A stretch of DNA of 62,373 bases from a virus: IMG/VR virus record IMGVR_UViG_3300008120_000066, positions 1 through 62,373 of that record; one strand, written 5' to 3'. The notes under the pieces were generated by a model. It was not told where the DNA came from, did not search any database, and saw nothing but the letters and a program-made list of their open reading frames with translations. This document shows, piece by piece, positions 48,250 through 61,929 of the stretch. A program made the translations under genes and the position numbers. The first letter of the stretch is position 1. Each line of letters opens with the position of its first letter.

Positions 48250-48900
48250 ATGAGACTAATTAGAGAACAAGTAACAGAAACAAAATTTATTGTTGAAGAA
48301 AAGCTCGGTAAAGGAAAACAGTATTTTATCGAAGGTATATTTCTTCAATCAGAACTAAAAAATCGTAATGGACGCATGTATCCAGAATCAATTATGGATA
48401 GAGAAGCGTCTCGTTACATAACAGAATATGTAGAAAATAATCGTGCTTACGGAGAACTAGGTCATCCAGATACACCGACAATTAATCTTGATCGTGTATC
48501 CCATTTGATTGTAGATTTACGTAAAGAAGGTACAAACTACATTGGTAAGGCAAAGATTTTAGAAACCCCAATGGGTGCTATTGCTCGTGGTCTTTTAGAG
48601 GGTGGCGCAAGTCTTGGTGTTTCTAGTAGAGCACTTGGTTCTTTAAAAGAGGACAAAGATGGTGTTCAAATCGTTCAAGACGACTTTATGCTGTCAACTG
48701 CAGCTGATATCGTAGCCGACCCATCGGCTCCAGATGCTTTCGTTCGTGGCATTATGGAAGGAAAAGAGTGGGTTTATGTTGATGGAAAATTTGTGGAGAG
48801 ACATATTGAAGAGACAAAGAGGGCAATCCAAAAGGTTTCCTCTCGTAACTTAAACGAGCAAATGCTCAAAGAATTTAAAAAATTCTTGATGAAATTGTAA
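48250..48900 (+). CDS. gp21: Prohead core protease gp21
   Basis: The 216-residue serine protease equals T4 gp21 in size (212). Catalytic candidates are His72 in YGELGHPDTP and Ser125/Ser126 in LGVSSRALGS, with an acidic partner in ADIVADPSAPD. NRNGRMYPESI near residues 38-48 is typical of the family. It digests the scaffold and trims gp23 at (L/I/V)-x-E sites so that the head can expand. It is followed by a perfect late promoter for gp22. Confidence 0.94.
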   Translation: MRLIREQVTETKFIVEEKLGKGKQYFIEGIFLQSELKNRNGRMYPESIMDREASRYITEYVENNRAYGELGHPDTPTINLDRVSHLIVDLRKEGTNYIGKAKILETPMGAIARGLLEGGASLGVSSRALGSLKEDKDGVQIVQDDFMLSTAADIVADPSAPDAFVRGIMEGKEWVYVDGKFVERHIEETKRAIQKVSSRNLNEQMLKEFKKFLMKL

Positions 48901-59562: not shown

Positions 59563-59862
59563 ATGACAACACTTATTATCAAAATGATTACTGGTGAAGA
59601 AGTAATCGCAGAAACAGAAGCATCTCCGCAAGGATATCTTGAACTAACAAACGCAATGACAATCATCGCACGACCAGATGAATCTGGCAGTGTGCGTATG
59701 GGTATGGTTCCGTATGCTCAGTTTGCAACAAGCAAAAAGGTGCGTGTGTATCCACATGCTATCATGGCTGACTATGAGCCAGCGTTAGAAATTCTCAATC
59801 AATATAATAGACTATTTGGCACTGGTATTCAAATCGCAACAGCCGACATGATGCCAAAGTAA
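59563..59862 (+). CDS. Conserved small beta-barrel-like phage protein
   Basis: The 99-residue product reads IIKMITGEEVIAETEASPQG, then YLELTNAMTIIARP, VRMGMVPYAQFA, and ends EILNQYNRLFGTGIQIATAD. The pattern 'iKl.TGEevIae......l.nP..i......' with 'qYN..FGsGi' is found in many marine T4-like phages and resembles an Sm-like barrel plus helix. Its role is unknown. It begins one base after the oxygenase gene and is the last gene before the GC-rich GIY-YIG insertion. Confidence 0.75.
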   Translation: MTTLIIKMITGEEVIAETEASPQGYLELTNAMTIIARPDESGSVRMGMVPYAQFATSKKVRVYPHAIMADYEPALEILNQYNRLFGTGIQIATADMMPK

Positions 59863-59880
59863 GTGACCACTAACTTATAC

Positions 59881-59897
59881 CCCTACAACCTGTAGGG
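59881..59897 (+). promoter_or_regulatory. Dyad CCCTACA-ACC-TGTAGGG, left copy
   Basis: Perfect 7-bp inverted repeat with a 3-nt loop just upstream of a sigma70-type promoter. It lacks a T-run, so it is either a weak terminator of the upstream gene or an operator-like site. A second copy with loop GCG lies at 60254-60270. Confidence 0.6.
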
Positions 59898-59904
59898 TTA
59901 TTGC

Positions 59905-59933
59905 TTGACGAAAATTCGTTTTTCCCGTATAAT
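59905..59933 (+). promoter_or_regulatory. Sigma70-type promoter of the GIY-YIG gene
   Basis: TTGACG (59905-59910), 17-bp spacer, TATAAT (59928-59933). Eleven of twelve consensus bases match. The start is expected around 59940, at the ATG (59941), so the message would be leaderless. The -35 and spacer sequence TTGCTTGACGAAAATTCG recurs at 60283-60300. Confidence 0.8.
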
Positions 59934-59940
59934 AGACTGT

Positions 59941-60282
59941 ATGAATAGGAAAAAACGAACTGACCGTAACCACCTGATATATCAGCTGACCTGTCTTGAC
60001 ACAGGATCCAGCTACATTGGTGTAACAGTGATGCGTGGACGTGCTCAACAAAAAACCCTTGCCACACGCTGGCAACAGCATCAATATCGTGCTCATCGTC
60101 AAGACAAAGACTGGGCACTGTCCGACGCCATTCGTAGCTACGAAAACTGGCATACACAGGTGGTCACAGTAGTGCGTGGCAAAAAAGAAGCCCATGCACT
60201 GGAAACCCAGCTGATTGACGACCTGCAGCCAGCCCTGAATACCCATAAAAAGACCCTACAGCGTGTAGGGTTATCGAATTAA
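59941..60282 (+). CDS. GIY-YIG nuclease (probable homing endonuclease)
   Basis: From ATG 59941 the product has 113 residues: LIY (12-14) and YIG (25-27) of the GIY-YIG core, catalytic Arg candidate in TRWQQH (Arg43), and Glu88 in ALETQLIDDLQPALN with the terminal Asn100. It is a minimal single-domain nuclease with no evident DNA-binding extension. A TTG start at 59905 is unlikely because it would fall on the -35 box. The gene is much more GC-rich (near half GC by eye) than its neighbours, a sign of transfer. It lies between two dyad-promoter copies, and the right dyad is part of its own 3' coding end. Confidence 0.85.
   Translation: MNRKKRTDRNHLIYQLTCLDTGSSYIGVTVMRGRAQQKTLATRWQQHQYRAHRQDKDWALSDAIRSYENWHTQVVTVVRGKKEAHALETQLIDDLQPALNTHKKTLQRVGLSN
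60254..60270 (+). promoter_or_regulatory. Dyad CCCTACA-GCG-TGTAGGG, right copy
   Basis: The stem is the same as in the left copy with a different 3-nt loop. It is embedded in the last codons of the GIY-YIG gene and precedes the second promoter, so the module dyad plus TTGCTTGACGAAAATTCG is duplicated around the gene. Confidence 0.6.
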
Positions 60283-60286
60283 TTGC

Positions 60287-60315
60287 TTGACGAAAATTCG
60301 GTTTTACGGTAAACT
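60287..60315 (+). promoter_or_regulatory. Second copy of the early-type promoter
   Basis: TTGACG (60287-60292), 17-bp spacer, TAAACT (60310-60315). The -35 and first part of the spacer equal the left copy, while the -10 is weaker (4 of 6). The start would be near 60322. It should drive the downstream cluster of small genes. Confidence 0.6.
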
Positions 60316-60345
60316 TATACTATGATGATTAAAAAAGGAAACGAA

Positions 60346-60603
60346 ATGTTAAATGTGAAAATTGGTGATGTGATCCGTGCTTATGACTTTAAACCAATGG
60401 TTGGTCGTGACGACTGCTTCGTTGAAGGTGTCGTTGAGCGTGAGACAAATGAGACAGGTTACTCTGCTTTTAAAATTACCGTGACCAAAGATTCTTGGTC
60501 TGATGCATCTGACAAGGGTCGTGTTGGTAAAATTGTTTTCGTACCAAAAATTGTTTCGTTCAGCGAATTTCCTGGACGTGTGATTAACTTATCGAGGATT
60601 TAA
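60346..60603 (+). CDS. Conserved hypothetical phage protein
   Basis: From ATG 60346 the product has 85 residues: LNVKIGDVIRAYDFKPMVGR, DDCFVEGVVERE, GYSAFKITVTKD and a VGKIVFVPK end. I chose this start because AAAGGA lies six bases upstream. An in-frame ATG at 60322 is at the predicted transcript start and lacks such a site. 'GD.vRAyDF.Pm.gR.DCfVeG.v' is a motif of small proteins widespread in phages. Their function is unknown. It looks like a small beta barrel. Confidence 0.75.
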   Translation: MLNVKIGDVIRAYDFKPMVGRDDCFVEGVVERETNETGYSAFKITVTKDSWSDASDKGRVGKIVFVPKIVSFSEFPGRVINLSRI

Positions 60604-60604
60604 T

Positions 60605-60766
60605 ATGAAGGGTTCTATTCGAATGGTTGTTGGTCTGCTGATTGTGTTTGGTGCAGTTGGTGGTCTTGATGTCCCAGAAAATAATGAGTTGCTGTGCACT
60701 GGACTGGCGATCGCTGGTTTGCTGATTATGGCAAGTGGTATTAATGCTATGAAGAAAGTTGTTTAA
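60605..60766 (+). CDS. 53-residue protein with two membrane segments
   Basis: ATG 60605, two bases after the preceding stop, runs to TAA 60764-60766. The peptide MKGSIRMVVGLLIVFGAVGG then LDVPENNELLCTGLAIAGLL and IMASGINAMKKVV shows two hydrophobic helices (about residues 6-20 and 31-44) separated by a short polar loop, with basic ends. It is an inner-membrane hairpin by prediction. Its stop overlaps the start of the next gene (TAATG), which supports it being real. The function is unknown. Confidence 0.72.
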   Translation: MKGSIRMVVGLLIVFGAVGGLDVPENNELLCTGLAIAGLLIMASGINAMKKVV

Positions 60767-61050
60767 TGTTGAAATGTGTTTGTCCTGTTTGTAACGGTAG
60801 CGGTCGTGTCTCCGCTGGCGATAATAAGTATAAGTCTGTGATCGCTGGCTACGACAAAGAAACTGATACACTACCCTGCAGAAATTGTGGTGGTCAGTAT
60901 ATGTTTGGTCGTCCGACTGGTGAAGTTCGTGCGAGACCTGACGGTAGTGCATGTACTCATGAGTATACCAGCAAAACTGTTGGTCGCTGTTTGACTGAAT
61001 ATACCTGCGTTCATTGTGGTGATCGCCATCAGATTGACTCAGGAGATTGA
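60766..61050 (+). CDS. Zinc-ribbon-like small protein
   Basis: The 94-residue product has three CxxC pairs: CVCPVCNGSG at the N-terminus, LPCRNCGGQYMFGRPTG in the middle and TEYTCVHCGDRHQIDSGD at the C-terminus, plus a single Cys-His near ACTHEY. The pattern, with the GRPTGEVRARPDGSACTHEY stretch, is a small conserved phage protein of DnaJ-like zinc-finger style. It probably binds two or more zinc ions. What it binds besides is unknown. Confidence 0.78.
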   Translation: MLKCVCPVCNGSGRVSAGDNKYKSVIAGYDKETDTLPCRNCGGQYMFGRPTGEVRARPDGSACTHEYTSKTVGRCLTEYTCVHCGDRHQIDSGD

Positions 61051-61051
61051 G

Positions 61052-61273
61052 ATGTTTGTGACTGTGTTGAAATGGATAGCTACCGCAGTTACTCTTGCTG
61101 GTGCTGTGGCTACTGCGCTGATGATTGATCCGCTCAACATCTGGTTGCTAAATGCTGGTGCTCTGTTGTTTTTGATCTGGGGATACCTAATCAAAGAAAA
61201 AGCAATGATCGCTGTAAATGCAGGGCTGTTGTTTATATATGTGGTTGGTATTTTGTATAGGAATGTGATATGA
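61052..61273 (+). CDS. Small membrane protein (SemiSWEET-like in outline)
   Basis: From ATG 61052 the product has 73 residues and about three hydrophobic helices: WIATAVTLAGAVATALMI, WLLNAGALLFLIWGYLI and MIAVNAGLLFIYVVGILY, with 'KEKAM..VNAGL' between the last two. A half-transporter of the SemiSWEET type has this length and helix count, and related phage proteins are known, but the similarity is only in outline. AGGAG lies six bases before the ATG. A longer start at 61016 would lie inside the preceding gene and is less likely. The stop overlaps the next ATG. Confidence 0.68.
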   Translation: MFVTVLKWIATAVTLAGAVATALMIDPLNIWLLNAGALLFLIWGYLIKEKAMIAVNAGLLFIYVVGILYRNVI

Positions 61274-61458
61274 TGAAAGATGATGAATTGGTAAAAACAG
61301 TTGTAAGTAAACTCTACAACAAGTACGGAACCTATGCTCATGCAGCTGGTTACCTAGAATCAACAGTGGCTGGTCTGCTGTCTGGAATTGATGACACTGA
61401 CAGTGTGCGTCGTCGACTGAACAATATGTTAAGTGAATTGGAGAAAGAAAATGGGTAA
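61270..61458 (+). CDS. Small conserved hypothetical protein
   Basis: The 62-residue product reads VVSKLYNKYGTYAHAAGYLE, STVAGLLSGIDDTDSVRRRL and NNMLSELEKENG. It is helical and soluble. The 'Y.tya.aaGyLes.va.ll' part resembles short phage regulators but I cannot assign a family. It starts on ATGATGA overlapping the membrane gene stop, and its 3' end overlaps the following start, so it belongs to the same early operon. Confidence 0.65.
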   Translation: MMKDDELVKTVVSKLYNKYGTYAHAAGYLESTVAGLLSGIDDTDSVRRRLNNMLSELEKENG

Positions 61459-61693
61459 AGTGAAGAATGAAATAATTGATGTGATAGATGCACTGGAAAG
61501 CACAGGAATGGACTTTGAGAAAGTTGCTAATCAGTTCGGTATGTCACTAACCGAGGTAATTGAAATTGCTCGTGAGTATGGTGACTTTGAAAACGATGCC
61601 GATCCTGGCGACATGGATGGTGACTTTGATTCAGCAATGGCAAGTGCTGGCTTTGGCACCGATGAAGATTATGGTTACTACGGAGAAGAATGA
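61451..61693 (+). CDS. Small acidic protein with helix-turn-helix-like segment
   Basis: From ATG 61451 the product has 80 residues. GGAGAAAG precedes this start, which favours it over an in-frame ATG at 61433 inside the previous gene. Residues about 18-43 (MDFEKVANQFGMSLTEVIEI with AREYG) have a helix-turn-helix-like spacing. The rest is Asp/Gly/Glu-rich and disordered. It may bind DNA or a partner protein, but this is a weak inference. Confidence 0.65.
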   Translation: MGKVKNEIIDVIDALESTGMDFEKVANQFGMSLTEVIEIAREYGDFENDADPGDMDGDFDSAMASAGFGTDEDYGYYGEE

Positions 61694-61929
61694 TGAACAA
61701 CACAATTGAATATCGTGGACAAACATTTGATCGCAGTCATGGTAGTCCCTTTGATCGAGGTTCAGCTGACAGCTGGTATAGTCGACCAGAAGAACCACAC
61801 TGGTATCCTGAGGGAAGCTACAATGGTAATCGCATTGATTCCAAAGACATGAGTATAGCTGAGATGCGAGCATATTTCATGGGCTACGAATACAATGAAA
61901 AATTTGGTGGTAAAAAGAGTTGGGATTAA
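61690..61929 (+). CDS. Conserved small phage protein of unknown function
   Basis: The 79-residue product carries EYRGQTFDRSHGSPFDRGSA followed by DSWYSRPEEPHWYPEGSYNG and an Ala-Tyr-Phe-Met-Gly-Tyr C-terminal motif. 'fDR.HGSPfDRGsADSyY.R...PH.yp.G.y' is a widespread and well conserved phage protein pattern whose function is unknown. ATG 61690 overlaps the preceding stop (AATGATG), with a second ATG at 61693. Confidence 0.78.
   Translation: MMNNTIEYRGQTFDRSHGSPFDRGSADSWYSRPEEPHWYPEGSYNGNRIDSKDMSIAEMRAYFMGYEYNEKFGGKKSWD

Follow-up and report, generated by a model that had tools for sequence, protein, structure and literature searches.

In the stretch of viral DNA analysed here (62,373 nt, hereafter the window), a gene for a small GIY-YIG nuclease lies between two similar modules, each consisting of a hairpin followed by a promoter. 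This arrangement raises the question of whether the nuclease gene arrived as a homing-type insertion that brought or duplicated a promoter, as the first-pass annotation supposed, or whether the modules belong to the phage at large. Our analysis strongly favours the second answer, i.e. that the modules are general cassettes of a hairpin terminator and an early promoter and that the nuclease gene is one gene block between two of them.

The record represents a T4-like phage: its gp46 homologue matches PHROG 77 (E = 1.5e-168) and has similar counterparts in 3992 phage records, the closest of which are approximately 50% identical (Methylophilales phage Melnitz). No similarity to phage records was found for the DNA of the locus, and the lineage is an uncultivated one without close cultured relatives. 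The genes are arranged in the order gp46, 2OG oxygenase, p99, module 1, nuclease, module 2, X, p53, Zn94, TM, p62, p86, and p79, and the gene content 3' of gp46 varies among close relatives, which marks this part of the window as the variable (hyperplastic) region of a T4-like genome. Elsewhere in the window, one weak tRNA call was obtained (48587-48685), with the amino acid not determined. Relatives in IMG/VR were sampled as 11 nuclease loci, 67 loci of gene X, and subsequently the best 80 of at least 480 nuclease loci, together with three large relatives (G001, G002, and G003; 147-165 kb) analysed as pieces, of which G002 is a 147 kb contig containing the nuclease locus L003. The features of the locus are as follows.

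59563-59862, + strand: p99, a 99-aa gene, the upstream neighbour (PHROG 527, E = 2.9e-12)
59860-59877, + strand: imperfect palindrome TAAGTGACCACTAACTTA / TTAGTGACCACTAACTTA directly 5' of module 1 (1 mismatch; 0.09 expected by chance)
59881-59897, + strand: stem-loop 1, terminator-like, 7 bp with a 3-nt loop and a TTATT tail (RNA fold -8.4 kcal/mol)
59905-59933, + strand: predicted promoter 1, TTGACG-17-TATAAT, sigma70 fit 11/12, its -10 ending 7 nt before the nuclease ATG
59941-60282, + strand: 113-aa single-domain GIY-YIG nuclease (PF01541, E = 1.9e-7, match 11-97)
60253-60271, + strand: stem-loop 2, within the 3' end of the nuclease coding sequence (residues 105-111; RNA fold -10.1 kcal/mol)
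60287-60315, + strand: predicted promoter 2 (of gene X), TTGACG-17-TAAACT, sigma70 fit 9/12
60322-60603, + strand: gene X, 93 aa when read from the promoter-proximal ATG; opens the downstream operon (67 IMG/VR relatives)
60605-61929, + strand: downstream small-gene cluster p53, Zn94, TM, p62, p86, and p79, partly reordered in relatives

The dyad CCCTACA-N3-TGTAGGG is present in exactly two copies in the window (59881-59897 and 60254-60270), with other matches of up to three mismatches at chance level, and TTGCTTGACGAAAATTCG likewise occurs exactly twice (59901-59918 and 60283-60300), whereas shuffled sequences yielded 0.08 matches even with three mismatches allowed. Both elements of the repeated module described in the first-pass annotation are thus located where it had placed them and lie far beyond chance, and the nuclease gene does lie between the modules, with the second dyad read by codons 105-111 of the 59941-60282 ORF. 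The two modules do not form one perfect repeat, because the gap between the dyad and TTGCTTGACG is 3 nt in copy 1 and 12 nt in copy 2. The orthologous promoter sites in L003 show a sigma70 fit of 12/12. The T-tracts behind the window hairpins are weak (TTATTGC and TTATCG), which makes their strength as terminators uncertain; stem-loop 1 obtains a terminator-like score on the + strand and stem-loop 2 on the - strand only.

These are the only two modules within the 62 kb window, and the large relatives contain more. A scan for a hairpin plus a promoter identified 6, 4, and 3 modules in G001, G002, and G003, respectively, under a strict rule, compared with one match in 15 shuffled genome sets, and approximately 7, 6, and 7 when imperfect stems were included by eye; a full-genome search with a consensus pattern proved too stringent and recovered only a minority of them. 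The modules in these genomes precede several unrelated genes, a result that counts against the reading in which the promoter was duplicated along with the nuclease gene.

Gene X, which has no match in Pfam or PHROG, can be read from the promoter-proximal ATG or from an in-frame ATG preceded by a Shine-Dalgarno sequence at 60346. A promoter was found before gene X in all 48 distinct upstream regions (9 expected), so that no imported promoter was needed to rescue this gene, and a strict terminator lies 5' of that promoter in 25 of the 48 (3.4 expected). The hairpin sequences at this place vary among relatives (CCCTACA/TGTAGGG, CCCCTC/GAGGGG, CCCCG/CGGGG, and GACCCAC/GTGGGTC), and the differing hairpins carry long T-tracts, i.e. 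they are predicted to be strong terminators. From these upstream regions, insertion of the nuclease gene would leave the downstream operon transcribed, as the first-pass annotation had argued: the nuclease has its own putative promoter and the operon keeps its own.

Several further observations were made at such promoters. The gene X transcript is expected to start near ATGATGATT, and in many relatives its ATG is in frame with the Shine-Dalgarno-preceded ATG; before other genes, in L109 and L112, the ATG near the transcript start opens a mini-ORF whose end coincides with the start codon. The sequence AAATCAAYRACTTA recurs just 5' of the hairpin or the -35 of early promoters (L106:18626, L109:8422, L119:5652, L120:17586, L121:9145, L124:14944, L171:2444, L207:404, and L007:1467) and is absent from the window modules; it fits the IHF consensus, WATCAANNNNTTR. 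An intergenic region in L015-L021 contains mismatched hairpins with a left arm CCCCTCA and a right arm TGTAGGG, which look like chimeras of two hairpin types and may have been left by exchange within the loop.

Empty sites with a single promoter copy, for which the first-pass annotation suggested a search, were found in approximately 20 contigs (some from the same phage), in which a p99 homologue lies directly 5' of gene X, with one or more hairpins and one promoter between them and no nuclease gene. These relatives are distant (amino acid identity of 27-41% for p99 and 48-88% for X), and the IMG/VR relatives included no near-identical phage whose site is empty. L003, by contrast with the empty sites, carries the nuclease in the same slot as the window. 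The two sequences share approximately 92% identity over a block that has the palindrome (59860-59877) as its left edge and hairpin 2 as its right edge and that takes in hairpin 1, promoter 1, and the nuclease gene. On the left flank, identity is approximately 60%, with 50-72% in the 2OG gene and zero at p99, which is absent in L003; on the right flank, most of X lies at 45-75%, with a single 40-nt bin at 88%, and identity returns to approximately 85-100% (about 90%) from p53 on. A conserved block that is bounded by hairpins and diverged on both flanks indicates that cassettes have been exchanged with borders at the hairpins. The palindrome TTAGTGACCACTAACTTA is common to several phages (L003:3920-3937 and L045:3883-3900).

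The occupant of the slot also changes. In G001, a membrane-protein gene (TM) takes the place of the nuclease gene; its product ends in VVGLFA, with the last codons forming the right hairpin arm, and the L003 nuclease has the similar end VGLFA. In L006 and L007, whose nucleases are 62-64% identical, the block precedes different genes and is once more bounded by modules of the local type, and the nuclease stop codon lies inside a CCCTCA..TGAGGG hairpin. These swaps mark the nuclease gene as one among several blocks that can replace one another. Most nuclease relatives have their own promoter and no promoter copy downstream, so the expectation that a duplication accompanies the nuclease did not hold; taken with the modules before other genes and the promoter found everywhere before X, this indicates that copy 1 is the promoter of the nuclease and copy 2 that of X. 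A comparable layout was noted in L056 (3723-4000), in which tandem promoters (97% alike) surround a small ORF between the nuclease gene and X with no hairpins.

The nuclease carries the catalytic motif GIY-N10-YIG, and residues Y14, Y25, G27, R43, E88, and N100 are invariant in 36 aligned sequences, 30 of which match PF01541. An AlphaFold2 model (pLDDT 87) consists of one GIY-YIG domain, and a fold search with it returned the catalytic domains of UvrC and I-TevI as best matches (E 0.004-0.04); the family profile had no match among sequences of solved structures. The 113-aa protein has no DNA-binding region beyond the catalytic domain, as the Pfam match covers residues 11-97 and the tail is disordered in the model, with pLDDT below 50 for residues 105-113 (hairpin 2 and after). 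Most distant relatives stop one or two residues after LNT, and the C-terminal tail therefore probably arose by chance, through translation running on into the module. The GC content of the gene is 48.5%, compared with a window mean of 35.9%, a value reached by 3 of 1241 equal-sized windows (approximately 3 sd above the mean). The gene is thus clearly more GC-rich than its surroundings on the upstream side, as first described, but less distinctly so on the downstream side, where the genes are also raised (40-46%).

In 34 of 49 distinct nuclease loci, the distance from the end of the sigma70 -10 to the ATG is 6-8 nt (28 of them at 6 nt), a spacing shared by only 22 of 464 other ORFs; it was seen in the window (59928-59943, with the ATG 7 nt past the -10) and in L003, L006-L013, and L128-L206. 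Such proximity across the family suggests that the nuclease mRNA is probably leaderless, behind an early-type promoter. Other strong promoters of this phage group are likewise followed by an ATG at offset 6 in excess (14/91). The family is present at no fewer than 480 metagenomic phage loci (confirmed candidates), while a tblastn search with three of its members gave no match in 50,697 phage records and the profile search of bacterial and archaeal genomes gave a single 4.4 kb MAG contig. A reading of the locus as a known defence system was rejected, PADLOC giving no match.

A homing-type origin, in which the nuclease would cut an empty allele and repair would copy nuclease and promoter to leave two promoter copies, finds some support in the flanks: at the four nuclease genes of the window clade, the promoters on the two sides resemble each other (83, 83, 90, and 79% identity, compared with a within-genome mean of 71-74%). 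Matched flanking promoters are not proof of duplication, however, because the promoters of one phage are alike anyway. Promoters 1 and 2 of the window are also identical over GCTTGACGAAAATTCG, where promoter 1 of L003 differs, which is compatible with local duplication or gene conversion; this identity rests on two bases and hints at local conversion, and the likeness of the two copies reflects a shared promoter family, possibly with local homogenisation. The GIY-YIG fold and catalytic residues are intact, but the nuclease lacks a DNA-binding domain beyond the catalytic one. Since, in addition, the same module stands before unrelated genes, the promoter of gene X is present without the nuclease, and the downstream copy is missing from most nuclease relatives, we regard homing with promoter duplication as unlikely. 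The first-pass proposal that an insertion brought or duplicated the promoter is therefore not supported.

The nuclease might instead cut preferentially at or near the modules and drive the shuffling or amplification of the genes that they bound, much as SegB does in T6. SegB is also a GIY-YIG enzyme and amplifies segments between short homologies (PMC13096335), and the locus shares with that system a GIY-YIG gene near short repeats able to recombine, although no amplification was seen at this locus and the parallel is hypothetical. Several divergent phages have a relative of the nuclease gene 5' of X, next to it or almost next to it in L053 and L056 and further upstream in L033-L035. Shuffling is seen, however, where the site lacks the nuclease (G001), and in the near-identical phage L005 (4001-4283) a 56-nt deletion breaks the frame of the nuclease gene and removes E88 while both modules remain intact, so that this explanation seems very unlikely to us. 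We see only a slim chance for its broader form, that a minimal, apparently virus-only GIY-YIG family with leaderless early transcripts cuts at or near modules and thereby reshuffles module-bounded genes; if true, this would be a nuclease-powered form of an exchange so far ascribed to general recombination between promoter early stem-loops (PeSLs). The dyads might also be operators that place both promoters under one transcription regulator rather than terminators. CCCTACA-N3-TGTAGGG is conserved just 5' of the -35 in several phages, and the strong conservation of the CCCTAC/GTAGGG core would also fit a protein-binding site. Against this stand the differing hairpin sequences at the same place in relatives, their long T-tracts, and a distance from dyad to -35 that varies between a few nucleotides and over 30 nt. 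Moreover, an anchored test covered 46 distinct hairpins of the form CCCTAC-N5-GTAGGG: 28 have a Watson-Crick apical pair, against 17 expected, and 4 of 5000 shuffles gave as many. Pairing that persists through changes of the letters points to an RNA hairpin rather than to a protein site. The operator reading is accordingly most improbable.

We therefore return to the modules as general cassettes. Each would consist of a short hairpin resembling a rho-independent terminator, followed at once by a strong early promoter for the host sigma70 RNA polymerase. The hairpin would end transcription coming from upstream and the promoter, judged by its consensus, would restart it for the next block, so that one small transcription unit would finish and another begin at every module. 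In the variable region after gp46, module 1 would drive the nuclease gene, and module 2 would drive X and the genes that follow. Homologous or semi-homologous recombination at the modules could then allow a block to enter, leave, or be replaced, and because the modules are alike, such exchange could take place while the next unit stays transcribed.

This arrangement has a counterpart in PeSL cassettes. Excision between copies, as inferred in the first-pass annotation, has been reported for PeSLs and is mechanically plausible here, though no case of it was seen. Arbiol et al. 2010 and Comeau et al. 2014 reportedly describe PeSL cassettes in which gene blocks are swapped by recombination between copies. 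By the same model, recombination at the modules would account for the borders found there in our lineage. The likeness includes a stem-loop beside a strong sigma70-like promoter, early-type here by its sequence; many copies per genome before different genes (approximately 6-7 in each of the three large relatives); and location in variable regions of T4-like genomes, with comparative evidence for gene exchange bordered by modules. The present modules differ in their hairpin core (CCCTAC/GTAGGG), in the overlap of hairpin 2 with the coding end of its cargo, and in belonging to an uncultivated lineage. PeSL cassettes of T4-type phages are cited in passages of PMC4503421 and PMC3950731, and the promoter/inverted-repeat motifs of the haloarchaeal virus HGTV-1 have been likened to them (PMC3950731); HGTV-1 similarly has a repeated promoter plus inverted-repeat motif before many ORFs, but is an archaeal virus with a motif of the TATA-box type.

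The nuclease itself invites comparison with SegA-SegG of T4, which are free-standing GIY-YIG homing endonucleases (PMC2988022). It shares with them a GIY-N10-YIG domain that has the Arg, Glu, and Asn of the motif and an intergenic position in the same orientation as its neighbours, and with segG the presence of a regulatory signal of the next gene inside the nuclease coding end (gene 32 promoters in segG). Unlike SegA-SegG, the present nucleases are approximately 100-113 aa long, have no extra DNA-binding domain, and stand behind a strong early-type promoter, whereas the endonuclease-specific promoters of T4 are only middle or late ones (review, PMC2988022).

These results extend module shuffling of the PeSL type to an uncultivated T4-like lineage. 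They also point to a nuclease family with a probably leaderless and unusual early organisation, represented at no fewer than 480 metagenomic phage loci and without a match to three of its members among 50,697 phage records. The sharp mosaic borders and the empty sites suggest that a selfish-looking nuclease gene is carried as ordinary cassette cargo, apparently without harm to downstream expression. The locus would thus add an example to an established route of gene exchange among phages and would not represent a mobile element of a novel type.
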